The position numbers and the translations under genes were made by a program. Source: Lamellibrachia satsuma (taxonomy: Eukaryota > Annelida > Polychaeta > Sabellida > Siboglinidae). Taken from it: a DNA stretch of 64,000 nt. Below, piece by piece: positions 13,407-61,978 of the stretch. Positions within the stretch are counted from its first letter, which is position 1, and each line of letters starts with the position of its first letter. The stretch is from NCBI GenBank assembly GCA_033239005.1, contig BSQZ01000028.1:4206501-4270500 (forward strand). The letters are read 5' to 3'. The notes below the pieces were generated by a model that was given only the letters and a program-made list of their open reading frames with translations, did no database searches and was not told where the DNA came from.

Positions 13407-13482
13407 TTCAATCAGTTGTTCAACATTTATCGTGTATACAGTGATAGTAATACATAGTGCAATGACGAAGGGTTCTTACAGG

Positions 13483-13840
13483 GATTTCTCCCGCGCCAGA
13501 GACCCCGAGCTTAGAGGTGTGTCCACCGCGCCAGACGCAAGACGCTCGAACGATGAGATGATGGACTTGGGGATCTCTCCTGCGCCAGAGACCCCGAGCT
13601 TAGAGGTGTGCCCACCGCGCCAGACGCCAGACGCTCGAACGATGAGATGATGGACTTGGGGATCTCTCCTGCGCCAGAGACCCCGAGCTTAGAGGTGTGC
13701 CCACCGCGCCAGACGCCAGACGCTCGAACGATGAAATGATGGACTTGGGGATCTCTCCTGCGCCAGAGGCCCCGAGCGTACGGGTGAGTAACTACCACGC
13801 CAGAGGCTCGATCGATGAAGTGATGATGATGATATATTAT
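13483..13840. repeat. 89-bp GC-rich minisatellite (4 copies)
   Basis: Units start at 13483, 13572, 13661 and 13750, an exact 89-bp period, with few differences among copies. The unit includes gcgccagagaccccgagc. Because 89 is not a multiple of three the long open frames across it are not evidence of a gene. A (TAA)n run follows at about 13855-13890. Confidence 0.93.
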
Positions 13841-13989
13841 CACTGTACACACTTGTAATAATAATAATAATAAAAAATAATAATAATTACGTTCTTAATG
13901 AAGCGATTAATAATGGCAAAATTGATGCGCATTGTCAGTGTGGTTACTGTTCGGGGCGACGATGCTACTCCGCTCGCACATGTTCTCGC

Positions 13990-15517
13990 ATTTCACCGCG
14001 CCGTTCAGCAGTCTCCAACGTTGTGAACAGTCTCCAACGTTGTGAACAGTCTCCAACGTTGTGAACAGCTGCGCTAACGCACGATCCAATTCGTAGTCGA
14101 GATGGCGCTTTACATTTTTGTCTGTTGGGACGAGGCACAAAGCCAAGTAACGCACCTGACTAGGGTGTTCGACACGGTACGCCTCACGCTCATTACGTAC
14201 CCGCTGCGTCAAACTGGTTAATGCATTACGCACAAATACCTGTTTCAGTGACTCGTCCAACTGTTTTAATGAATCCTCCATCCTGCGGAAGAGCGAAGAG
14301 AATCGATGACAACGAACACGCATCATCGGTCATTGAATAGTAGGAGACAATCAGTGACGCTGACGAACAAGAGGGGGCCGCCTCCGTAGAGATGATGTCG
14401 CCATCACTCACGTAGTCGAGCAAATCGTCGGTGTTAGTGTTGAGCTCGAAGAGGTCGTCATCACACACGTAGTCATCCGCCTCAGTGAAGAGTTCGATGA
14501 CGTCGTTGGTGAGGTCGCTGCCCGTTTCGGTGGTGAGGTCTATGATGTCGTTGGCGATGTCGCTGCCCGTCTGGACGGTGAGGTCAATGATGTCGTTGGC
14601 GATGTCGCTACCCGTCTGGACGGTGAGGTCAATGATGTCGTTGGCGATGTCGCTGCCCGTCTGGACGGTGAGGTCAATGATGTCGTTGGCGATGTCGCTG
14701 CCCGTCTGGAAGGTGAGGTCAATGATGTCGTTGGCGATGTCGCTGCCCGTCATGACGGTGAGGTCAATGATGTCGTTGGCGATGTCGCTGCCCGTCTGGA
14801 CGATGAGGTATATAATGTCGTTGGCGATGTCGCTGCCCGTATGGACGATGAGGTCAATGATGTCGTTGGCGATGTCGCTGCCCGTCTGGACGGTGAGGTC
14901 AATGATGTCGTTGGCGGCAGCAACAGTTTCCTGTAACGCCACGAACTGTACAACACCCCTAGAAACGGCTGCAACATACGCGTCATACATAGCTATGACC
15001 TCGGCTTCCCATTCCTACAGAGAAACGAACAGAAAAGAAATACAGTTATAGTTTACACCACATCCGCGTCTGTCACGTTGAAATTGGTAAAGGGATTGTT
15101 GTCGTATTTCTTGACCGTCACCCGTAGTGAGGAACCCCGCACTATGTCTAACGCGTCTCCCAGTACTGCGGTCCTTGGCCAAGCCACAGTACCCCTCTTT
15201 GAGGGAACATGCTCTATCAATGGCGTCTCACCGGTTCCCTCAAGATACGACTTCAAAGGTTTATCTTTGATTTTTTGATCAGTAGCTCGTACATGACGCC
15301 ACGCCTCGTTCCAACCTGGGCTCGTTCCATGCTATTAGTCGCAAATTTTGCAGCGGTTTTTATGTCGCCGTGGTATGTACATTTTTTGTACTCCTTCCAC
15401 GGATGTAAAGTGGCGACTCCAGGCGTGCAGTCTACAGGGATAACAATTCGACAAGGGGTAGTTTTCGACCCTAAGCCTAATAGCTCGCGGTTTACGTCCC
15501 ATGCTGTCGTCTGTTCG
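13990..15517 (-). CDS. NADAR-domain protein with tandem SUMO-interacting-motif-like repeats (possibly frameshifted)
   Basis: Exon 1 (15517-15059, acceptor ttag before CGA; ATG at 15502) shows a NADAR (DUF1768) fold: NYPLSNCYPC, FTSVE, then KCTYHGDIKTAAKF, GVMYELL, LKSYLEGTGETPLIE and VLGDALDIVR. NADAR enzymes cleave N-glycosidic bonds, of riboflavin intermediates in YbiA, and remove ADP-ribose from guanine in bacterial DarT-linked systems. Two breaks, both at A6 runs (15382-15387 and 15271-15276), must be bridged to read the whole domain. A 44-bp intron (GTGTAA...TGTAG) leads to exon 2 (15014-14412, 201 codons in one frame), which has about nine 15-residue units of the form SDIANDIIDLTVQTG, followed by acidic sequence and a GTGAGT donor. 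A third block (14282 to about 13990; EDSLKQLDESLKQVF, RVRNEREAYRVEH) follows a strong acceptor, but its frame does not match phase 0, so its membership is uncertain. Upstream exons are not identified. Confidence 0.6.
14009..14065 (-). repeat. 19-bp unit repeated three times
   Basis: Exact copies of cagtctccaacgttgtgaa at 14009-14027, 14028-14046 and 14047-14065. They lie in the third coding block of the NADAR gene. Since 19 is not a multiple of three, each added copy shifts the frame. Confidence 0.95.
14521..14925 (-). repeat. 45-bp coding tandem repeat encoding IIDLT units
   Basis: Nine near-identical 45-bp copies plus one diverged copy. Each encodes 15 residues. Seven of the nine contain exactly IIDLT, and the others read IIDLI and IIYLI; the diverged tenth reads VIELF. 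The frame is open through the array. Confidence 0.95.
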
Positions 15518-16700
15518 CTAATGTTTATGAGGCTTTTCAAAATTTACAGCGCTTTGAAGCATTATACATTTTTTCGTTATTCGTTATATAACGCAAGCAT
15601 TTCTCCCACATGTATCGGATTTTATCTACTGCAAGACATGCAGTTCATGTTTTCCTACCACTGTGTAGTTTTTTACTTTCCTTGCGTATGCAACTCTGAC
15701 GGCTGCAATCTAGTCCGTCGTTTTATCTCGCTGCGATTATGTTGCGCAATATCCTTTCTTTGTCGGGGTGTCTATATACGTCTTGCTTACAGCGACTTAA
15801 TTCAAACTGTCATTGCTCTCCGACGCCAACGATCGAAGGAAGAACTGAAGCAAACGGGGGTTATGCGTATGATGAGACCAATGCGGGTTATCGAGCAGGA
15901 CTCCCTGCACCCTTTCGATAGGCGGTAAGTTTGCATTCTGCCGTTGTCTGTCTCCATCCGCGGGGTTTCCGACAGTTCTCGCGGCCCGCCGTTGGACGCG
16001 GACGGATATCTTTCATGACATACGTATAGTGGGTCTAGCCCGCGCCTATCACCACCTAGGGGTATACGTGTGCTTCCCAGAAGAATTGAGAATTTAACAT
16101 ATGCTGTGGAAGGCGGCCCTGGACGACGTCTTCGAAATCTTTCCCACGAACATTTATTCAACATATAATAGTTTGATGGTGATAAATAATTATATCATTC
16201 TTATAGTGCTTGGTTAGTTATAAAAAAATAGTTATGTAAGATATACGTACGAACATTTATTCAATATCATGATTAATAATTATGTAATTCTTGCAGTGGT
16301 TGATTAGGCTATAATCATAAATGGTGTGTTATTTCCTTTAACGTCAGGCCCCTTCGTAATGGCCGCTCCGTAGATCCCACCGGATATGGCAATACAGGAT
16401 ATGACCCTAGGCAGGAAAAGGCAGTGACCATAGCTGACTGAATATATGACCTCAAATGATCGGATATGATGCTAGGCATGCTGGGAGGAAACGGAAGTAC
16501 CGCCATTACCGAAAGAATACAACTTTGAGACCCAGTTTCCCCTAAATTACTATTCACCAACCATGTGGATATGATCGATATGTTTGGCCTGTGCGCAAGA
16601 CAAAATTAAATTTGAATTACTACACTACCAGTAAATGCTCGAATGGCAAAACACTCAGCGCCGCCATTATTATACATTTAGGTGGTATGTGGAGATGTAC
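15518..16700. other. No firmly supported gene; possible upstream exons of the NADAR gene
   Basis: Minus-strand open stretches occur (for example 16164-15802) and one reading near 15960-15815 (NLPPIERVQGVLLDNPHW) looks protein-like. I cannot connect any of them by matching splice phases. The plus-strand frame at 15209-15928 is antisense to the NADAR exon and is not a gene. Confidence 0.35.
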
Positions 16701-18906: not shown

Positions 18907-19717
18907 CTAGGATGCCGTCACCATATAATCAAGAAAAGTAAAATCATAATAGAAGACGACGTCCTGTATAAAGGTCGCCCTATCTACACGTGCGCCAGAC
19001 ATGCCGGTCTTGCCGGTCTCGCCTGTCTTGCCGGTCTTGCCTGTCTTGCCGGTCTTGCCAGTCTTGCCTGACTTGCCGGTCTTGCCAGTCTTGCCTGTCT
19101 TGCCTGTCTTGCCTGTCTTGTTGGACTTGCCAGTCTTGCCTGTATTGCCTGTCTTGTTGGACTTGCCAGTCTTGCCTGTCTTGCCTGTCTTGCCAGTCTT
19201 GCCTGTCTTGCCTGTCTTGCCTGTCTTGCCGGTCTTGTTGGACTTGACGGACTTGCTCTTAAAGCGCTTCTTCAAGCGGCCCCAGAAGCGTCGTATCCGC
19301 TTAACGACGCCCGCCCCGCGCGCTGGTGTCTTGGGGCGGGTCGCCTCGACGTCCTCGTCCCCGTCATCGTCCGTGTCCTCCGTCGACGTCGTATCGGAGG
19401 AAGCTGGTGTAGCGTCAGACGATGCCGGGGGCATGCTGATCTTTTGGATCTCCGGCAGTAGTCGCCCCCCTGCTTCGACGTTCTCGGAATGCGGGACTGC
19501 GCCTCGTCTTCTCTTCTGCAACTACTGATGAGAACGCATTGGAAAGTGTTTGTAAGACGACTAAAATGTACACAACTGAGGCGTTTTTTTTATTAATTTA
19601 TCTACTGTAGTACTGCGCCCTGTGTGTGTATGTGCGAGTGCGTGCCTGCGTGTGCGTCTGCGTGCGTGTGTTTGTGTGCGCGAGCATGGGTGTGCGTGCG
19701 CGCGTTTCTGCGTGTGC

Positions 19718-20640: not shown

Positions 20641-23600
20641 TCTATTTAACAAGATTTAACAAGATTTGCCATCCAAGCCAAAGGCCCAGATGGCAAGTGG
20701 ACAAGGAAGCCATTGGCTTATCGAGAGTCCAACAATGTTCACCTACTTATAACCCGCCCTCCTGATATATGTGTCAACCTTGTTTTTAAACATATTCACG
20801 CTGCTAGCAGTTACACAATCTGTAGACAGTTTGTTCCATTCATTTATTGTCCTCTGTGAGAACGAGTGCTTCCTGATGTCCAATCTACATTGATCCTTTA
20901 CTAATTTTACCTCATGTCCTCTAGTTCTGCTATCCTTCTTGAGTGAGAAAAACATATTTCTATCAATATTTTCATACCCATTCAATATCTTAAAAACTTC
21001 AATCTGATCTCCTCTTAACCTCCTTGTCTCTAGAGTTGTTAAACCACATTCTTTCAGGCGTTCTTCATAACTAAGGTCTCTAAGTTCTGGAATCATTTTA
21101 GTTGCTCTCCTTTGTATGCGTTCAAGCGTATCTATATCCTTCTTACGATATGGTCTCCATGCTTGTATACAGTATTCTAAATGAGGTCTAACTATTGCTT
21201 TATATAGAGGTATAATTAACTTTTTTCCCTTGTATGTTATGTTTCTTCTAATCAATCCAAGAATTTGATTACCCTTTGAAGCTGCAATACCACACTGCTC
21301 TGAAACTTTCATATCAGCGCTTATTGTAACTCCTAAGTCCTTTTCTTTTACAGTAGTACCAAGAACAGTAGCTCCCATTTTATAGTTTACATTCAAGTTC
21401 CCATGTCCTGTATGTAGGCATTTACATTTCCCAAAATTGAACAGCATCTGCCATTTCTCAGACCATTTCACTAATCTGTTTAGATCGTTTTGTAAATGTT
21501 GTTTATCACCATCAGTATTAACCTTTCTAAACAGTTTTGTGTCGTCCGCAAATTTCAGTACGTTACTTGTTATACTCTCGTCCAAGTCACTGATATAAAT
21601 TAAGAATAATATAGGTCCTAATACTGATCCTTGAGGTACCCCACTCAAAACCGATTTCCAATTTGAAACTTCGCCATCTACTACAACTCGTTGTCTTCTG
21701 TCAGTCAGCCATTGTTCTATCCAGTCAGTTATGCTATCCCCGATACCATGGGCTTTTAATTTAAGTAGCAATCTTTGATGTGGCACTTTGTCAAAAGCTT
21801 TCTGAAAATCTAAGTAGATAATATCTACTGGCGATCCCTCGTCTATCCACTTAGTGATTTCTTCCAAAAAACATAACATATTTGTTAAGCATGACCTCGC
21901 TTTAAGGAATCCATGTTGAGATGAATTTAATAATTTATGCTTAACGAGGAAGTCCACCATATGGTCTTTAATTAACCTTTCTAATAATTTACAAATCACT
22001 GACGTTAAACTCACTGGTCTGTAATTCTCTGACTTATTTCTCGAACCCTTTTTAAATAATGGTATGATGTTTGCTTCTTTCCATTCAAACGGAACAACTC
22101 CCTCTTTTAATGACAAGTTGAATACTCTTGCAAGTGGTATACTGATTTGATCTACTGTTTCCATTAGTAATTTTGGAGGAATCCCATCCACTCCCGGTGA
22201 TTTGTTATCCTTCATTGCCTTTATTTTCCTAGCTACCAATTCTGGAGTTACAACTAACGGTCCTAAATAGTCAGATTTAGCCCCTGAAATTTAGCATCAG
22301 CAATTGGTAATGAACTAATATCTTCTTTTGTAAACACTGAACTGAAGTAACCATTTAGGTCTTCCGCCATTAAAAACCCCTGTGATATTATATTTCCAGC
22401 ACTGTCTTCTAGAGGTCCAACCTTGTCTTGTACGTTTTGTTTACTCCTGACATATGCATAAAAACTCTTGCTGTCAGTTTTTATGTTACATGCCAGTTTT
22501 TGCTCATAGCTTCTTTTAGATTGTCTGATTTCAGTTGTAGCTGCATTAAGTGCCTCTTTGTATTTTGCATAGTCTTCTTCCTTTCTGGTACGCCTATAAA
22601 CCCTCCACATAGTTTGTTTTAGCATTATTTTTCTAATTGCCTCTTTTGACAAGTGTTTCTTTCTACACCGTTTTCCTTGTTTTCGGAAGGAACAAATTTA
22701 TCAATGATACTCTCAATTTCATATTTTAGAATATTCCAACATTCAATAGCAGTCTTATTCATCAGCATGTTATTCCAATCTAGCTGTGCTAAGTATTTTC
22801 TCATATCTTTGTAGTTACCTTTGTGGAAGTTTCTCTTGTACGTTTTCTTATTTTTACTTTCTGATTTTACATTGATGTCAAAATGTATTTGATTATGGTC
22901 ACTATTACCCAATGGTTCAAATATTTTTACATTGTCCACTAATTCTTTTTGTGATGACAAAACTATATCTAATACATTTTCTCCCTGGTTGGTTCTAGTA
23001 CGTGCTGAGTAAGAAAGCTATCCTGGATTAAACATAGAAATTGTTGATCCTCAATCCCTGTGCTCTCTAGAGAATTCCATTGTATGTGTCCATGGTTAAA
23101 ATCTCCCATTATGATACATTCCCTTTACTAACTTCCTTTATAGCGTTTTTTATTTTTGTGTTGTCCTCTTCGTTTATGTTTGGACTTCGGTAAACTAATC
23201 CAATAGTTAATTTTGAATTTCCTGAAACAATTTTGCACCAAACAGCTTCATCGCAATCTGCTTCCCTTTCTAGTTTTATTTCATAAGCCTGAATAGATTC
23301 TTTAACATATAAAATAACTCCCCCGCCCCTTCTTCCTATTCGATCTTTCCTAAACATTACGTATCCTGTCAGTCCTAATTCAGCATCTGCTATATCTATG
23401 TTGGCCCATGATTCAGTTATACCAATTATGTGAGGGTCAATATCTTCTACCATAATGTTTAATTCGTTTTTCTTATTTACTATGCTCCTTGCATTTAAAC
23501 ATACGCATCTATAACCTTTTTCAGAGATGTTTTTCGGATGATTTGATATTGGTTTATCTGTGCTAGTGGCCTCTTGTTCTGCTTGAGACACCTCTAGGTA

Positions 23601-25470: not shown

Positions 25471-28400
25471 TCTGCTCTGAGGATAACAACCTTGTCGCGG
25501 TGGAGTAGCTTGTGTGCTTCAGTGATCCTGAGAGCTATGCCGGCTGGGATACGTGTATCCCTAGTAGGTTTAACCATGCCGGACTGGTCGAGGGTGAGAT
25601 TCCAGACTAAGAGTGATCCCTCGTCCTCCAGGTTGGGGGTTGGGCGGCAGGCTAACAACCTGCTCCCGTAAAAAACAACAGATGTTACAGAAACATGTAC
25701 AAGAAATCCAGCCTTTCTGATGGGTGATATTGGCGCTCGTTCTTCGACAGAGGATAGCATGAATGGTGATCGCCAAAGCCGTAAGGAAGCTAACACCAAG
25801 ATAGAGCCGTTAGTACATCCACGAAAACAGATCAAGGTTGCGTGTTGGAATGTGAGGACGATGAACGCAGATGGTAAAACTGAGCAAATTGTAGATGAAA
25901 TGAATAACTATGGCATAGACATACTGGGAATCAGCGAGAGTAGGTGGACTGGAATAGGAAAAGTCAGACTAGAAGGAGGGGAGACCGTGTTGTATTCTGG
26001 GGTAGAAACCAGACACGAGTTTGGTGTTGGGATAATAATATCTAAGAAGAACAGGAACACACTTCTCGAATGGCATCCAGTGAACGAACGAATTATTACT
26101 GCTAGATTCTTTTCAAAACACATAAAGATGACTGTAGTGCAATGCTACGCGCCCACAAACGATGCAAGTGATGTGGATAAGGAGCACTTCTACGAAGTTT
26201 TGCACGGCATAACAACAGCAGTACCGAAACATGACATGCTTGTGGTCCTAGGAGACATGAATGCAAAAATAGGAGCGGACAATAAAGGCTATGAAAACGT
26301 GATGGGAACAAACGGATGTGGAGAGATGAATGAAAATGGATTCCTATTCGCAGAGTTTTGTCAAACACAGAATCTTGTAATCGGTGGCAGTATATTTCCG
26401 CACAAGAGCATCCACAAGTTAACGTGGATGTCACCAAATGGAGTTACCAAGAACCAAATTGATCATATCACAATTGATAGAAGATTCAGAAGATCATTGA
26501 AAGACGTAAAAGTAAGGAGAGGAGCACAGGTAGGCAGTGATCACGAACTTGTAGTAGCTAATATCCAACTTAAGCTGTGTAGACAGTCGGTGGAGAAGGG
26601 CGGTGGAAAGCGGTATGATGTTGATAAGCTTCGAGTGTATGAAACTGCTCAAGAATTCAAGATTGCACTGAGTAATAGGTTCCAGGTGTTGGAACACACT
26701 GAAAGAGTAGAAGATTGTTGGTCAGGGGTGAAGGAAGCTATTTGTGGTGCTAGCGAAGAAGTTCTTGGATTCAGAACGCATGCACAACCGGGATGGATGA
26801 CAGGAAGAAGCCTGGAAAAAGTAAGCGAGCGGAAAGCAATCAAGGACAAAATCAACGCTACCAAGTCGGAAAGACTAAAGACAATACTAAAGAACAAGTA
26901 TATAGCCAAAGACAAAGAAGTTAAAAATAGTGTCCGTGCAGACAAAAGGACGTATATGGATGACCTTGCAAAACAAGCAGAGCATGCTGCAAACAGAGTT
27001 GAACAAAGAACGCTGTTTACACTGACCAAGAAAATAACTAATGAAAGCTGCAGAAAAAGTACACCGGTCAAGAACAAAGGTGGAGAAGTAATAACATCAG
27101 AAGCAGACCAGATAGAGAGATGGAGAGAACACTTCTCTGAGGTTCTGAACTCAGAGGCACCTGACGATCCTGTTGATGTTCCAAACAATGAATTATTCGA
27201 CATAGACATTGACACTAATCCGCCTAATATAAAAGAAATTGAAAAAAGTATAAAAGCGTTGGGAAACAGTAAATCACCAGGAGTTGATAACATACAGGCT
27301 GAAATGTTGAAAACACAGAGTAATATGGTAGCACGAAAACTTGAGGAAGTGTTCAAATTAATTTGGAAGAATGAAGAAATACCTGAAGAATGGCAGAAAG
27401 GAGTCATCATTAAATTGCCTAAAAAAGGTGACATGGAGAACTGTAATAACTGGAGAGGTGTTACGTTGTTGTCAGTTCCCAGCAAGGTGCTGGGAAGGGT
27501 GATTATAGTCAGGATAAGAGATGCGCTCGATAACAAACTGAGGAAAGAACAAGCAGGTTTCAGAAGGGGGAAAGGATGTATGCAGCAAATTTTCATATTA
27601 AGGAATATCATCGACCAGTGCCTCGAATGGAATAGCCCACTCTTCATCAACTATGTGGATTTTAGGAAAGCCTTTGATAGTATTCACAGAGAGAGTTTAT
27701 GGAGAATTATGAAATACTATGGAATTCCATCCAAAATTATCAATCTTGTGAAAATGTCTTACAAAAACTTCAGATGTGCAGTTGAGCATGGAGGCAAATT
27801 GTCAAAATGGTTTCCTGTGGTGTCGGGAGTGAGGCAAGGATGTGTGATGTCAGGGTTTTTGTTTGTATTGGTGATAGACCGGAAAACAACTAGAAGGAAA
27901 AGAGGAATTCAATGGGGATTAGATACGATGGAGGACCTAGATTTTGCAGACGATTTAGCACTGTTATCAACATCAAGAAGAAACTTACAGCAGAAGACAA
28001 ACGAGCTAGAAGTGCATGCAAAGAGAACTGGACTACACATAAACACAGCCAAAACGAAAGTGATGAAGATCAAGACTGATGATAACCAACCAATAGTAAT
28101 AGGCATAGACAATGTAGAGACTGTTGATAGTTTCACTTATCTAGGCTCAGTTATGGATGCAGACAAAGGTTCAACAGCAGATATAAGCGCACGCATAAAG
28201 AAAGCGAGAGCAGCCTATTATAAACTGAGGAAAGTGTGGGCATCAGGCCAATACAGAAGGAAAACGAAACTCAGAATCTACAAGAGCAATGTGATGTCAG
28301 TTCTACTATACGGAGCAGAATGCTGGAAGGTAAACCAAAATGATGGACAAAGGCTCAATACATTTCACAATAGATGTTTACGTCGAATTCTACATATATT

Positions 28401-28741
28401 CTGGCCAAAACAAATTTCAAACGAAAAACTGTATGAAGAGGTAGAAATAAGCAGGATAACAGACATCATCAAGGCTAGAAGATGGAGTTTTATTGGCCAT
28501 ATCCTTCGATTTGAAAATACAAATGACTGCCGTATAGTGATGAATTGGACACCTGTGGGAAAGAGAGCGATCGGAAGACCAAAAGAGACATGGCGGAGAA
28601 TGGCGGAAAAAGAACGAGATGGGTTTGGGTGGACATCATGGGCAGAGGCGGCACAGAGGGCGGCTGACAGGGCGGAATGGCGGACTTTTGTACATGCCCT
28701 ATGCGACACATGGCGCCCAAGGGATCCGTAAGCCGTAAGTA
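25471..28741 (+). mobile_element. RTE-like LINE (CFDP2-type endonuclease), nearly intact
   Basis: The insert has a 249-bp 5' leader, one long ORF and a very short 3' end (GTAAGCCGTAAGTA) before the duplicated target. Such short simple 3' tails suit RTE-type elements. Structure, orientation and clean target duplication indicate a comparatively recent insertion into an older LINE. Confidence 0.9.
25720..28731 (+). CDS. Endonuclease-reverse transcriptase polyprotein of the RTE-like LINE
   Basis: 1003 codons, no stop. Residues about 30-280 form an apurinic-type endonuclease: KVACWNVRTMN, GISESRWTG, VQCYAPTND, LGDMNAKIG, NQIDHITIDRR and GSDHELVVANI. RT follows at about 510-780: NSKSPGVDNIQAEML, NWRGVTLLSV, QAGFRRGKGC, YVDFRKAFDSIHR, SGVRQGCVMSGFLF, FADDLALLS. 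The C-terminal region (YGAECWKVN, RRILHIFWPKQISNEKLY, RWSFIGHILR) ends WRTFVHALCDTWRPRDP. Between the QGC block and FADD the text VIDRKTTRRKRG looks a few residues short of relatives, so activity is not certain. ATG at 25720 is the first in frame. The clade call RTE rests on the CFDP2-like endonuclease and short tail. Confidence 0.92.
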   Translation: MGDIGARSSTEDSMNGDRQSRKEANTKIEPLVHPRKQIKVACWNVRTMNADGKTEQIVDEMNNYGIDILGISESRWTGIGKVRLEGGETVLYSGVETRHEFGVGIIISKKNRNTLLEWHPVNERIITARFFSKHIKMTVVQCYAPTNDASDVDKEHFYEVLHGITTAVPKHDMLVVLGDMNAKIGADNKGYENVMGTNGCGEMNENGFLFAEFCQTQNLVIGGSIFPHKSIHKLTWMSPNGVTKNQIDHITIDRRFRRSLKDVKVRRGAQVGSDHELVVANIQLKLCRQSVEKGGGKRYDVDKLRVYETAQEFKIALSNRFQVLEHTERVEDCWSGVKEAICGASEEVLGFRTHAQPGWMTGRSLEKVSERKAIKDKINATKSERLKTILKNKYIAKDKEVKNSVRADKRTYMDDLAKQAEHAANRVEQRTLFTLTKKITNESCRKSTPVKNKGGEVITSEADQIERWREHFSEVLNSEAPDDPVDVPNNELFDIDIDTNPPNIKEIEKSIKALGNSKSPGVDNIQAEMLKTQSNMVARKLEEVFKLIWKNEEIPEEWQKGVIIKLPKKGDMENCNNWRGVTLLSVPSKVLGRVIIVRIRDALDNKLRKEQAGFRRGKGCMQQIFILRNIIDQCLEWNSPLFINYVDFRKAFDSIHRESLWRIMKYYGIPSKIINLVKMSYKNFRCAVEHGGKLSKWFPVVSGVRQGCVMSGFLFVLVIDRKTTRRKRGIQWGLDTMEDLDFADDLALLSTSRRNLQQKTNELEVHAKRTGLHINTAKTKVMKIKTDDNQPIVIGIDNVETVDSFTYLGSVMDADKGSTADISARIKKARAAYYKLRKVWASGQYRRKTKLRIYKSNVMSVLLYGAECWKVNQNDGQRLNTFHNRCLRRILHIFWPKQISNEKLYEEVEISRITDIIKARRWSFIGHILRFENTNDCRIVMNWTPVGKRAIGRPKETWRRMAEKERDGFGWTSWAEAAQRAADRAEWRTFVHALCDTWRPRDP

Positions 28742-46463: not shown

Positions 46464-49400
46464 TCATTTCTCTTTCTTTTTATGCCTCCGCTGTTCCTCC
46501 AGGCCGGTCAGTTTCTTGTCGAGCTTCCGTTGCAGATGTGCTCGCGTTCTGGCATCGGGCAACTTGCTGGGCACCCCACTGCCTGGGTGCAGAACTCCGT
46601 CCCTGCTGATGAGGGCACGGGCACGAGCCTTGGCCATATCCCCGCAGCCGTGCACCTCCGGGATGTGGTGCCTTAGGCAGTACCTGCGGGCACAGAATGG
46701 ACAGTTCTGTCCCAGCGTCGCGGTGCTCTCCTTGCAACAAGCGAACGCACAGGAGACATTCTCCTTCATCGCCGCCGCGATCAACACATCGAAGTCTTCC
46801 TCTGATTCCAGCTCCAATATTTTCTTCTTCTTCTGCTTCTTTGTGCTTTTTGATTTCTTCGCTTTCTCTGCGTGCACGATGCTGTCACTAGGTGGCGCCA
46901 TCTCCTGGCGGCAACGCAAGGTGTGCAATGTTCGGTTCGCGGCGGGGATCTGCTTGCTGCAGTTGTCGCAAGTAAACATCGAGTCACTATCTCTGATAGG
47001 ACCGGGTGGAGATTGGACAGTTGAAGTTACCAGAGATCGTGCTGCACATGTTGTAGGAGATTGTGCTGCGGATGTTTTTGTCGGACCGTCGCCAGAACTC
47101 TCCTCAGAGTCATCAGATGACTGTGTGGGACAAGTGACGCTGGTCGTTGACAGGCTGTCAGTGCTGTTAATGCTGGAGGTGTTAGGGGTTGACGTGTGGC
47201 AGACTGTCTTGTCCGACTTGCTCACTACAATCTGTCTCTCCAGTCCCTCGCCACGACTCAGGTGAACCAGACCCAGACGTTCTGCTATCTGCAAAACACA
47301 ACCATTTCACAGCCAGCCTTTGACCTAAATTCAGTGATAGTTTAATCCTAACTTTCAATATAATTTTCACAGTTCTCAACGTCAATGACAGCCTAATTGT
47401 CTGTGTTGCTCCACCATGTACATAACACTGTCCACACTACCCTCCGTGTATCACCATCCATGTACACGACCCTGTCCACACATTACCCTCCGTGTATCAC
47501 CATCCATATACACGACACTGTCCACACACTACCCTCTGTGTATCACCATCCATGTACACGACACTGTCCACACACTACCCTCCGTGTATCACCATCCATG
47601 TACACGACACTGTCCACACACTACCCTCTGTGTATCAACCATCCATGTACACGACACTGTCCACACACTACCCTCCGGGTATCACCATCCATGTACGCGA
47701 CACTGTCCACACACTACCCTCCGTGTATCACCATCCATGTACGCGACACTGTCCACACACTACCCTCCGTGTATCACCATCCATGTACACGACACTGTCC
47801 ACACACTACCCTCCGTGTATCACCATCCATGTAGACGACACTGTCCACACACTACCCTCCGTGTATCACCATCCATGTAGACGACACTGTCCACACACTA
47901 CCCTCCGTGTATCACCATCCATGTACACGACACTGTCCACACTACCCTCCGTGTATCACCATCCATGTAGACGACACTGTCCACACACTACCCTCCGTGT
48001 ATCACCATCCATGTAGACGACACTGTCCACACACTACCCTCTGTGTATCAACCTTCCATGTACACGACACTGTCCACACACTACCCTCCGTGTATCACCA
48101 TCCATGTACACGACACTGTCCACACACTACCCTCCGTGTATCAACCTTCCATGTACGCGACACTGTCCACACACTACCCTCCGTGTATCACCATCCATGT
48201 ACACGACACTGTCCACACACTACCCTCTGTGTATCAACCTTCCATGTACACGACACTGTCCACACACTACCCTCCGTGTATCACCATCCATGTACGCGAC
48301 ACTGTCCACACACTACCCTCCGTGTATCAACCTTCCATGTACGCGACACTGTCCACACACTACCCTCTGTGTATCACCATCTATGTATACGACACTGTCC
48401 ACACACTACCCTCCGTGTATCACCATCCATGTACACGACACTGTCCACACACTACCCTCCGTGTATCACCATCTATGTATACGACACTGTCCACACACTA
48501 CCCTCTGTGTATCAACCTTCCATGTACACGACACTGTCCACACACTACCCTCCGTGTATCACCATCCATGTACACGACACTGTCCACACACTACCCTCCG
48601 TGTATCAACCTTCCATGTACGCGACACTGTCCACACACTACCCTCCGTGTATCACCATCCATGTACACGACACTGTCCACACACTACCCTCTGTGTATCA
48701 ACCTTCCATGTACACGACACTGTCCACACACTACCCTCCGTGTATCACCATCCATGTACACGACACTGTCCACACACTACCCTCCGTGTATCAACCTTCC
48801 ATGTACGCGACACTGTCCACACACTACCCTCCGTGTATCACCATCCATGTACACGACACTGTCCACACACTACCCTCTGTGTATCAACCTTCCATGTACA
48901 CGACACTGTCCACACACTACCCTCCGTGTATCACCATCCATGTACGCGACACTGTCCACACACTACCCTCCGTGTATCAACCTTCCATGTACGCGACACT
49001 GTCCACACACTACCCTCTGTTTATCACCATCTATGTATACGACACTGTCCACACACTACCCTCCGTGTATCACCATCCATGTACACGACACTGTCCACAC
49101 ACTACCCTCCGTGTATCACCATCTATGTATACGACACTGTCCACACACTACCCTCTGTGTATCAACCTTCCATGTACACGACACTGTCCACACACTACCC
49201 TCCGTGTATCACCATCCATGTACACGACACTGTCCACACACTACCCTCCGTGTATCAACCTTCCATGTACGCGACACTGTCCACACACTACCCTCCGTGT
49301 ATCACCATCCATGTACACGACACTGTCCACACACTACCCTCTGTGTATCAACCTTCCATGTACACGACACTGTCCACACACTACCCTCCGTGTATCACCA

Positions 49401-52400
49401 TCCATGTACGCGACACTGTCCACACACTACCCTCCGTGTATCAACCTTCCATGTACGCGACACTGTCCACACACTACCCTCTGTGTATCACCATCTATGT
49501 ATACAACACTGTCCACACACTACCCTCCGTGTATCACCATCCATGTACACGACACTGTCCACACACTACCCTCCGTGTATCACCATCCATGTACGCGACA
49601 CTGTCCACACACTACCCTCTGTGTATCACCTTCCATGTACGCGACACTGTCCACACACTACCCTCCGTGTATCAACCTTCCATGTACGCGACACTGTCCA
49701 CACACTACCCTCTGTGTATCACCATCTATGTATACGACACTGTCCACACATTACCCTCCGTGTATCAACCTTCCATGTACGCGACACTGTCCACACACTA
49801 CCCTCCATGTATCACCATCCATATACACGACACTGTCCACACACTACCCTCCGTGTATCACCATCCATGTACACGACACTGTCCACACACTACCCTCCGT
49901 GTATCACCATCTATGTATACGACACTGTCCACACACTACCCTCCGTGTATCACCATCCATGTACGCGACACTGTCCACACACTACCCTCTGTGTATCACT
50001 ATCCATATACCCGACACTGTCCACACACTACCCTCCATGTATCACAATCCATGTATGCGACACTGTCCACACACTACCCTCCGTGTATCACCATCCATAT
50101 ACACGACACTATCCACACACTGCCCTCCGTGTATCACCGTCCTTGTTCGCGACACTGCTCTCTCCACACAGTTCACTCACCACAAATCTCTGCGTTGCCT
50201 TGCTGTCTGATATTGCATTATTGCTAAGATCTGTATTGTTACTTTCATCTAAGCAACTGCCATATTTACATTCACTGATCACTTCTGCAAGACAGCCCAA
50301 ACAGCTTTGATCATCTAATTCTGAAATAAATAAGTTGAAATAAATATTGGGAGTAGGGCTTTTTTGGTAGCTGCACCAATTCTTTGAAATTCACTCCGTA
50401 TTAATGTTGAAAGGAAACAAAGCATATTGATCCATTAGTTGAACTTTAGCATTGTATACCGATTTTGAGATTGCCAAGCCGTTTTGTGTGGATTAACTCA
50501 TCAACTCAGTTTTCCGAGGGTTTATGCATGATAGTTTTTTATTATAACATACTAATATTGTGATAATTCTGACCAAATGGGACGGCTCAGTGTATGAGTA
50601 CAGATATGCCGACCTGTAGGCATACAAATGTTGACACGTTTATTTTATGGGGTTCATTGTCCATAACGGCATTGGTCTCCCTCAGTTCACTGCCTGACCA
50701 CTGGTCAACGCACCAGTGAGTCAGTGACCCCAGTACTGACCTCGTGGACAAGGTAGCGGTCATGAGCATTGAGACTTGCAGGGAAGGCGTGTTCTGTGCG
50801 GGCAGTATCACTGTGGAAGTCTACCAAGGTCTGCTGCAGCTCCAACTCTCTCGCCGAAGGTTCCTCATTAGTTGGCTTCGCACTTGAAGAAGAAGAATGA
50901 TTTTATTTTACCCCAACAAATTCTAATAATGCATCCATGATAGATTATAATTTTACAAAACGAGAGTGTATAAAGCATATAAAAACACAGTACCTAGTCA
51001 GGTATATAACAAAACAAACTTAAGGAGACTCCACTAAGACTTTCATAGTCACTCTCGAGGAGCCAACTTATCAACTGAAATTAAGCTAAGCCAATTGCCA
51101 AACAAATTGTATTCTTCCCCCAAAAAATTAATTAACAAGTACAGAAGGCAGGAGAGTATGACAGACAAATACACAGCTGCCCAATGGTATACAAACTACA
51201 TTGCAGGAAGTACAGAACTGGGTGGGTTTATTAGGGTGCATGTCCCATACCTGACTGACTTGTGGGGCACTGGCCTTGTGATTGGGGCAGCTTTCTGTGT
51301 CGTCTTGTGAGGTTTTGCCGTTGTCTTGTCTGATTTGCTGCGAGACTGAGTCGGTTTATTCTTCTGTGAGCTCTCCATGTTGCGCAGTCGTTCAGGTCGC
51401 AGACAGTCGGTACTTAGCACGCCCTCTAGTGTTAAATATATGACAACGATATTGTTGATTCAATTTATCGAAAGGAGGATTGGCTAGAATAATTAGCCAC
51501 ATGTGACATTGAAATTGATCAATATCAATGGCACACCCACAACAACAATGTCACTGCAATGTAGGTAGAAATATTAACACTATATACAGGTAAAACGTAT
51601 GTTCTATTTCGCGCAGTATCCAGTCCTTAGGACCACTCAAAAAGTTTAACATTTCACCCCCTGGCAGCTAACATGAACTCAACTTCTCGGGGAAGCATTC
51701 AGTCATTTTACAATTACTGCAAGACTATTCGTTCACACATTTCCACCACTGTCTATAGCCAGGTACTCATTTGTACCGCTGAATGAACTGAGGCAACATG
51801 GGATAAGTGAAACTGCCCAAGCTTTGAAACGGTACAAGTGGTTTCAAATCCCAGTCCTTGCAATTGACAGATCACCATTCTACCCACTGTACATACATAC
51901 ATACACAGTATACATACACAGTATACATCACACCATTCTACCCACTGTACATACATACATACACAGTATACATACACAGTATACATCACACCATTCTACC
52001 CACTGTGCCCATCTATATGTCAGTATACATCACACCATTCTCACCTTGTATGTACTGTTCTGCTGAGCGGACGTCTGCATTCTCAGACAAGTACTCCACT
52101 AACGACTTCAAGAACTTGTTGTGACTCACGGTCTCACTGTCACATATCACCGCCAGGTGGCGCCGTGCTCGGGTGATGGCGACGTTTATTCTCCGCTCCA
52201 AGGCTAAGAAGCCAACCTCACCTACAGATGGTAGAATCATGTAAACCACACTGTAATATACGGTAAGGAATAAATCCATGCAATCACTTTAAAGAGGGAA
52301 TTATAATTTTTGTTGGAAGGCATGCACAATAATACCTAGTGTAACATTACCAGAGCGTATATATAACCAGTCAACTGCTAATGAAACCAGTTGCAGTTTG

Positions 52401-60579: not shown

Positions 60580-61978
60580 CATGGAGAACATGATCCAGCG
60601 GGAATACGCAGAACATGATCCAGCGGGGATACGGAGAACATGTTCCAGCAGGGATACGGAAAACATGATCCAGCGGGGATACAGAGAACATGATCCAGCG
60701 AGGATACGGAGAACGTGATCCAGCGGGGATACGGAGAACATGATCCAGCGGGGATACAGAGAACATGATCCAGCGGGGATACGGAGAACATAATCCAGCG
60801 GGGATACGGAGAACATGATCCAGCGGGGATACGGAGAACATGATCCAGCAGGGATACGGAAAACATGATCCAGCGGGGATACGGAGAACATGATCCAGCG
60901 GGGATACGGAGAACATGATCCAGCGGGGATACGGAGAACATGATCCAGCGGGGATACGGAGAACGTGATCCAGCGGGGATACGGAGAACGTGATCCAGCG
61001 GGGATACGGAGAACATGATCCAGCGGGGATACGGAGAACATGATCCAGCGGGGATACGGAGAACATGATCCAGCGGGGATACGGAGAACATGATCCAGCG
61101 GGGATACGGAGAACATGATCCAGCGGGGATACGGAGAACGTGATCCAGCGGGGATACGGAGAACATGATCCAGCGGGGATACGGAGAACATGATCCAGCG
61201 GGGATACGGAGAACGTGATCCAGCGGGGATACGGAGAACATGATCCAGCGGGGATACGGAGAACATGATCCAGCGGGGATATGGAGAACATGATCCAGCG
61301 GGGATACGGAGAACATGATCCAGCGGGGATACGGAGAACATGATCCAGCGGGGATACGGAGAACATGATCCAGCAGGGATACGGAAAACATGATCCAGCG
61401 GGGATACGGAGAACATGATCCAGCGGGGATACGGAGAACGTGATCCAGCGGGGATACGGAGAACATGATCCAGCGGGGATACGGAGAACATGATCCAGCG
61501 GGGATACGGAGAACATGATCCAGCGGGGATACGGAGAACATGATCCAGCAGGGATACGGAAAACATGATCCAGCGGGGATACGGAGAACATGATCCAGCG
61601 GGGATACGGAGAACATGATCCAGCGGGGATACGGAGAACATGATCCAGCGGGGATACGGAGAACATGATCCAGCAGGGATACGGAGAACGTGATCCAGCG
61701 GGGATACGGAGAACATGATCCAGCGGGGATACGGAGAACATGATCCAGCGGGGATACGGAGAACGTGATCCAGCGGGGATACGGAGAACATGATCCAGCG
61801 GGGATACGGAGAACATGATCCAGCGGGGATACGGAGAACGTGATCCAGCGGGGATACGGAGAACATGATCCAGCGGGGATACAGAGAACATGATCCAGCA
61901 GGGATACGGAGAACGTGATCCAGCGGGGATACGGAGAACATGATCCAGTGGGGATACGGAGAACATGATCCAGCGCAG
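60580..61978 (+). repeat. 25-bp minisatellite (about 56 copies) inside BEL pol
   Basis: Unit gaacatgatccagcggggatacgga with a few point variants (gaacgtg, cagcaggg, aaaacatg). The left edge reads through the pol codons for MENMIQREYAE. The right edge returns to cagcgcagaaagagtacctg (ERVPDSNLNKDD). The array therefore grew from coding sequence at that point. It is open in all three minus frames only because the unit has no stop there. Confidence 0.97.

Follow-up and report, generated by a model that had tools for sequence, protein, structure and literature searches.

On the minus strand of a 64,000-nt stretch of the Lamellibrachia satsuma genome (the window, always meant at its full length), positions 13990-15517 had been read as a single gene, in which a NADAR domain is followed, across a short intron, by an array of repeats resembling SUMO-interacting motifs (SIMs). 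This raises the question whether one protein indeed combines these parts, or whether they have been brought together in some other way. Our analysis indicates that NADAR and SIM-like motifs travel together as separate genes of a mobile element and not as one host protein. The locus itself we interpret, with a probability of about 0.85, as the remains of a virus-like mobile DNA element, a copy that has decayed and undergone an internal deletion.

NADAR and SSB remains joined by a deletion

The search with a profile of this genome's own NADAR domains, applied to 1,514 frames of the window, placed three minus-strand pieces of the putative first exon in ranks 1-3. These are the piece containing part of LSN...SVEG (15338..15517; 23.6 bits, E 1.7e-6), the piece LKSYLEGTGETPLIEHVPSKRG (15191..15280; 10.5 bits, E 0.017, rank 2) and the piece starting with KCTYHGD (15256..15543; 9.7 bits, E 0.03, rank 3), each in a different frame; the next frame in the list has E 0.37. 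We regard this result, obtained on the separate pieces, as decisive for their NADAR ancestry. Taken singly, the pieces match no Pfam family at E up to 1. When they are joined with X at the breaks, PF08719 is the sole family at E up to 10 (15.0 bits, E 0.031), so the match predicted by the sequence-only reading is found, but below the cut-off of 35.1; the same string matches TIGR02464 with E 0.14. Scored with an HMM built from 11 NADARs of E. coli and phages, the joined string has 12.6 bits, a value reached by none of 20,000 shuffles (16,584 reported), while in a frameshift-tolerant scan with the same 11 NADARs the locus has 17.6 bits and lies below the window background (best elsewhere 23.8; 200 shuffles reach 24.8). 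Protein searches in a collection of 5.8 billion sequences yielded no match, the PDB none at E up to 10, the phage search one match only, with E 7, and the search of viral contigs none (a YbiA query gives one locus there).

The window copy of NADAR is spread over three frames, and parts of it are missing. The aligned copy retains the first Glu and has an alignable Trp, while Asp and Gly of DxxWG and GxN are lost; neither the full set of catalytic residues conserved in the PF08719 family nor an intact frame was found in this copy. The columns LG...R, initially aligned as NADAR, are in fact SSB sequence. On the opposite strand of the relic (15203-15928, plus) there is a 241-aa open frame with no Pfam match at E up to 0.1.

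The end of the putative exon has a different source. The last 34 residues of its third piece (residues 59-92 of 92) match the RPA-like single-stranded DNA-binding protein (SSB) that follows NADAR in the elements of this genome. With an HMM built from 13 SSB frames of these elements, the match has E 0.0037 among the 1,514 frames (the next one 0.92), and the score of the tail, 15.9 bits, is reached by none of 20,000 shuffles. The alignment extends to the last residue before the stop, as in SSB, and the segment 15053..15157 (minus strand) is thus the C-terminus of an SSB gene together with its stop codon. It follows that what was taken for exon 1 consists of a NADAR front and an SSB end: the NADAR ancestry assigned to it holds, the single domain does not.

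The comparison with close relatives explains how these remains became adjacent. A DNA search of the genome with 14917-15502 returned, besides the window itself, 19 pieces distributed over ten loci, of which all but C86 were fetched; eight of these nine are counted below as relatives, L065 being left out, as the SSB and array part is absent from the stretch fetched. Not all of them are independent: the sequences of L059 and L063 are alike, and two relatives share a contig at a distance of 8 kb. In all six relatives that have both parts, NADAR and SSB are separated by 362-669 bp, compared to 54 bp in the window, and therefore a deletion joined the two remains here, which speaks against one NADAR-SIM protein. 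The junction (15156..15157, minus strand) is seen in the blastn alignment with L062, where query positions 403-445 and 444-710 align to two sites separated by about 420 bp. NADAR is split over at least two open frames in all seven relatives that have NADAR matches, and as its position coincides in five of the seven, the split may reflect an old break that they share or, instead of decay, an intron. Six copies including the window (L060, L061 and L062 were left out, their frames being too short) yield pS 0.128 and pN 0.090 per site, which implies at most weak constraint.

Downstream of the locus there is an 89-bp minisatellite (13481..13777, plus strand), identified by the repeat finder and matched by blastn to L057, L058, L059, L061, L063 and L064. 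Its segment 13492-13535 is 82% identical over 44 bp to L034:2292-2335, beside a protease-like frame, a weak hint that both may belong to one element type.

The spacer and the array of 45-bp units

Between the SSB stop and the frame with the array lies a spacer (15015..15052, minus strand) with a pyrimidine tract and AG, and all eight aligned relatives have AG and a mostly pyrimidine tract here. The acceptor is strong, with 19 of 22 pyrimidines (nine sites with at least 19 occur on both strands outside six arrays), and an in-frame GT-AG of 44 or 47 nt is present; the in-frame donors are weak, and the best-looking one (GTAAAC, by eye) is out of frame. Of the 44-bp intron in matching phase that had been proposed, GT-AG and the acceptor are thus retained, but in seven of the eight close relatives the frame after AG starts with its own methionine, in another phase. 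Moreover, the SSB relic and its stop lie between NADAR and the array despite the in-frame GT-AG. From its position and sequence, the apparent intron reads as the spacer that follows SSB.

The open frame past the spacer (14229..15014, minus strand), known from the ORF list and codon use, lies at the position of gene C, the gene that follows SSB in the elements described below, and includes the array. According to Tandem Repeats Finder run on the window, the array covers 14490-14916 (45 bp, 9.5 copies, 92% matches), and by repeat finding and unit translation nine units are delimited at 14511..14915 (minus strand). They are translated into nine 15-residue units, as had been stated, although IIDLT is present in seven of the nine, the other two having IIDLI and IIYLI. 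The adjacent unit 10, TNDVIELFTEADDYV (14466..14510, minus strand), is diverged and reads VIELF; judging from its translation and from the units of the relatives, it is likely the counterpart of their last unit.

Three units are present in six of the eight relatives, and none in the other two. Among the six, the first unit has IIDLT in five cases and IIYLT in one, the second NINLx in five and IKDLI in one, and the last VIDLI in four and INDLV in two. The expected conservation of IIDLT is therefore observed for the first unit, while other units differ and two relatives have none. Past the spacer, five of the eight relatives read VIA(V/M)HDAYSAAV..., and the other three have variants of it. Given this common core, the nine units are most simply explained by expansion in the window copy.

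The pattern [VI][VI]DLT occurs seven times in the six-frame translation of the window, all within the array and nowhere else. A window unit has three Asp and no Lys or Arg per 15 residues, and the SIM pattern (a hydrophobic core beside acidic or Ser residues) is present in the units. The array itself exceeds chance. Since three of the six frames through the array are stop-free and frames in other arrays of the window reach 791 aa, the open frame is weak evidence. Unit-to-unit changes are silent in 5 cases and not silent in 11, with about 25% silent expected without selection, and units 9, 10 and 11, when compared, give the chosen frame no advantage over others. In codon score this frame ranks first of six ahead of the array (0.20), inside it (0.12) and past it (0.18); its lead inside the array is narrow, the runner-up having 0.11. 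Intact coding frames used as controls, which are the same frames as the training set, score 0.12-0.16, and for random stop-free frames of 180 bp the median is 0.07 and the 95th percentile 0.19. The structure of the array frame predicted without an alignment contains strands only, with mean pLDDT 47.9, and was given no weight.

A second open frame from the ORF list (MEDSLKQLDE..., 13907..14281, minus strand) is possibly a remainder of gene C or of gene D. Profiles of these two genes give no match to it; its resemblance to gene C, noticed by eye, was dropped, as the score is reached by 35 of 300 shuffles. At 14009-14068, within the frame past the array, there are 3.2 perfect copies of a 19-bp unit. 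The DNA pattern of an IIDLT pair had 0 matches in viral contigs, and IIDLT none in a literature search covering open-licence papers, where absence is a weak argument.

The NADAR element and SIM-like motifs of gene C

In the 735-Mb genome (279 contigs), PF08719 has at least 150 matches, all above the cut-off (150 scored of 573 candidates). Twenty loci were fetched along with this search, and among them L015-L022 match each other, flanks included, over 2.0-3.4 kb with 93.6-98.8% identity (longest pieces of the pairs shown). Twenty regions were also selected from the list of matches for distinct scores and frame lengths. Of the 16 loci examined (of 24), 15 have SSB behind NADAR in the same orientation, and two genes encoding acidic proteins, C and D, follow SSB in 14 of the 16 (of 24). 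The dispersed element is thus organised, on one strand, as NADAR, RPA-like SSB, acidic gene C and then gene D; as SSB follows NADAR in the loci examined, gene C does not have NADAR as its natural partner. The assignment of SSB to Rep_fac-A_C (PF08646) was obtained for three of three copies tested (E 2.9e-13, 1.4e-7 and 4.4e-9), and likeness to this RPA-like family is seen both in other copies and in the window relic.

The sixteenth locus, L035, is another gene, lacking the element layout. Together with L013 and L014 it belongs to contig C77, where two neighbouring non-element paralogs have open frames of 696 and 1,287 aa. In both, a long acidic part precedes NADAR (90 bits, the best among the genome matches listed), and by eye there is a basic tail rich in RG/RN; the longer paralog has tandem repeats. 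These paralogs are possibly host genes.

On the opposite strand of L034 there is a protease-like frame with a weak match to S273R (E 0.033) and another frame that we take to be capsid-like, with no Pfam match; a frame with the DTDS motif in L045, also with no Pfam match, is presumably polymerase-like. SSB, the copy number, this weak protease match and these presumed likenesses suggest the virus-like nature of the element. PF03175, considered as a Polinton mark, was dropped, as the genome search found it in a single place, on a contig with no listed NADAR match.

SIM-like motifs are found in 14 of 16 gene C frames of other elements, 25 matches in total, while shuffled gene C sequences have on average 3.4 matches (maximum 10 in 500 shuffles) in 3.1 frames. 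The examples are LVVITDDE, VIVVSSDD and LIIISDDE, with a hydrophobic core and Ser or Asp; of the gene D frames, one in 12 has such a motif. The pattern was widened by one letter (Met first) after a similar one had matched 13 of the 16 frames, the counts retain L048, one of the 16, which is unlike gene C, and four of the 25 matches (in L042 and L054) are in the C-terminal part with no acidic run. Moreover, the gene C frames are related copies, and hence the counts are not independent. Still, because gene C of other elements carries such motifs, the SIM-like reading of the array is retained as a fair lead, though as a lead only. The window array frame would be gene C by its position only, since the gene C and D profiles find neither this frame nor the second one in the window. 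By their sequence, the array and the gene C motifs may bind SUMO.

In distant elements where SSB precedes gene C, the first 20 codons of the latter are devoid of methionine (13 of 13 rows), and the gene C frame starts at YAG just past the SSB stop in 11 of 13. Splicing between SSB and gene C is therefore possible in these elements; the likeliest donor in three of the rows, chosen by eye, is a weak GTC.

Alternative explanations and known systems

The locus could be a functional host gene with an N-terminal NADAR and a C-terminal SIM array, interrupted by assembly errors. The in-frame GT-AG with its strong acceptor and the coding-like codon use on both sides of the array agree with such a gene, but its first exon would contain SSB remains, it would have arisen by a deletion relative to all six relatives with both parts, its NADAR would be devoid of Asp and Gly of DxxWG and GxN, and its phase at AG would differ from that in 7/8 relatives. 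The window contains an intact 3-kb LINE frame, which makes frequent assembly indels unlikely, and the existence of this host gene is very improbable. Nor does the array have to be coding: a noncoding minisatellite could have an open frame by chance, with an accidental likeness to SIM amplified by tandem duplication. The nine units are near-identical copies, so that IIDLT counts as one event, and the three open frames out of six, the 791-aa frames of other arrays, the ratio of 5 silent changes to 11 others, close to the 25% expected without selection, and units 9-11 all fit this explanation. It is nevertheless unlikely, given the codon use of the array frame, the recurrence of IIDLT in the first unit (5/6) and of VIDLI in the last one (4/6) in relatives, and the SIM-like motifs that other elements have in the gene occupying this position.

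Splicing of gene C to SSB is harder to dismiss; working elements would then make SSB with a SIM tail, and the window would keep the trace of a mini-intron. The absence of an early methionine (13/13) and the YAG start (11/13) in distant elements, as well as the conservation of AG and the pyrimidine tract among the window and its relatives, are in line with it, whereas seven of the eight close relatives have their own methionine, and no donor was found, the weak GTC being the likeliest in three rows. We consider such splicing possible, with the odds somewhat against it. Most likely, the apparent fusion is debris of a deletion, and the locus is a dead copy with an expanded array.

According to this interpretation of the locus as a dead element copy, the deletion fused the NADAR front to the SSB end, NADAR went out of frame and no longer has its complete active site, and a single SIM-like unit was multiplied, from three units as in the relatives to nine. 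In working elements, SSB and gene C may act together in DNA replication, the gene C protein may dock to SUMO or SUMO-modified host proteins via its motifs, and NADAR may cleave ADP-ribose, or glycosides related to it, off nucleic acid or signals. It is a tentative and rather unlikely extension that NADAR, SSB and a SUMO-binding acidic protein form a module meeting ADP-ribosylation and SUMO on replicating element DNA, with the varying number of SIMs tuning the choice of SUMO chains. The window copy itself would yield no working protein, and removal of ADP-ribose from guanine at poly-SUMO foci, earlier suggested for it, is very unlikely.

Mavericks/Polintons are large virus-like DNA elements present in many copies in animal genomes, marked by a protein-primed DNA polymerase B, an integrase, a capsid, a protease and terminal repeats. 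The NADAR element resembles them in being large, virus-like and multi-copy, but its protease-, capsid- and polymerase-like frames are no more than candidates for these hallmarks. Its NADAR belongs to the NADAR/YbiA superfamily (PF08719), judging from the window pieces, the at least 150 genomic places and the YbiA-type motifs; the window copy differs from the family in its three frames and lost residues. Eukaryotic mobile elements carrying NADAR have been described, namely Ectocarpus Gypsy and oyster Tx1 (ORF1); NADAR there is situated in Pol or ORF1 of retroelements, whereas here it is a separate gene beside an RPA-like SSB (PMC12477816). Viruses use NADAR as well: phages, large DNA viruses and RNA viruses have NADARs whose predicted substrates are derivatives or conjugates of ADP-ribose, and in the accessible text the SSB/SIM gene neighbourhood was not found (PMC9503650). 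RNF4-type multi-SIM proteins likewise have several short hydrophobic SIMs, and in RNF4 the core, spacing and acidic flanks are reported to matter for SUMO-chain binding (PMC3901395); the window units are near-identical tandem copies of putative SIMs. NADARs have been reported to act on guanine ADP-ribose (PMC11543638, PMC11125620), a nematode protein that has three NADAR domains is reported to be essential (PMC9303266), and what animal NADARs do physiologically is said to be unclear (PMC11125620). Among the literature matches listed, which cover open-licence papers and make absence a weak argument, titles and abstract beginnings contain no pairing of NADAR with SUMO, those on Polintons, Mavericks or adintoviruses do not mention NADAR, and the NADAR-SSB-SIM neighbourhood is not described.

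The genome thus has at least 150 NADAR places, many with open frames, tied to an SSB gene and a SIM-like gene in a mobile element. This hints that some animal NADARs may serve replication of elements or viruses, or counter-defence. It also calls for caution with apparent NADAR fusions in animal genomes, which can be debris of elements.

The window contains several further features. An apparently recent LINE has an intact 1,019-aa endonuclease/reverse transcriptase frame (25672-28731), and the LINE copies at 21632-23521 and at L036:1-1895, a NADAR element locus, are 99.3% identical, which indicates recent transposition. The frame at 46464-47306, with an AN1 zinc finger and a weak R3H match, is probably a host exon; we take it to be IGHMBP2-like. 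The open frame at 18907-19521 contains about 26 copies of a 9-bp unit, (GKT)n, and matches the collagen repeat model. Large minisatellites with long open frames are located at 47414-50157 (46 bp, 59 copies) and 60583-61975 (25 bp, 56 copies).
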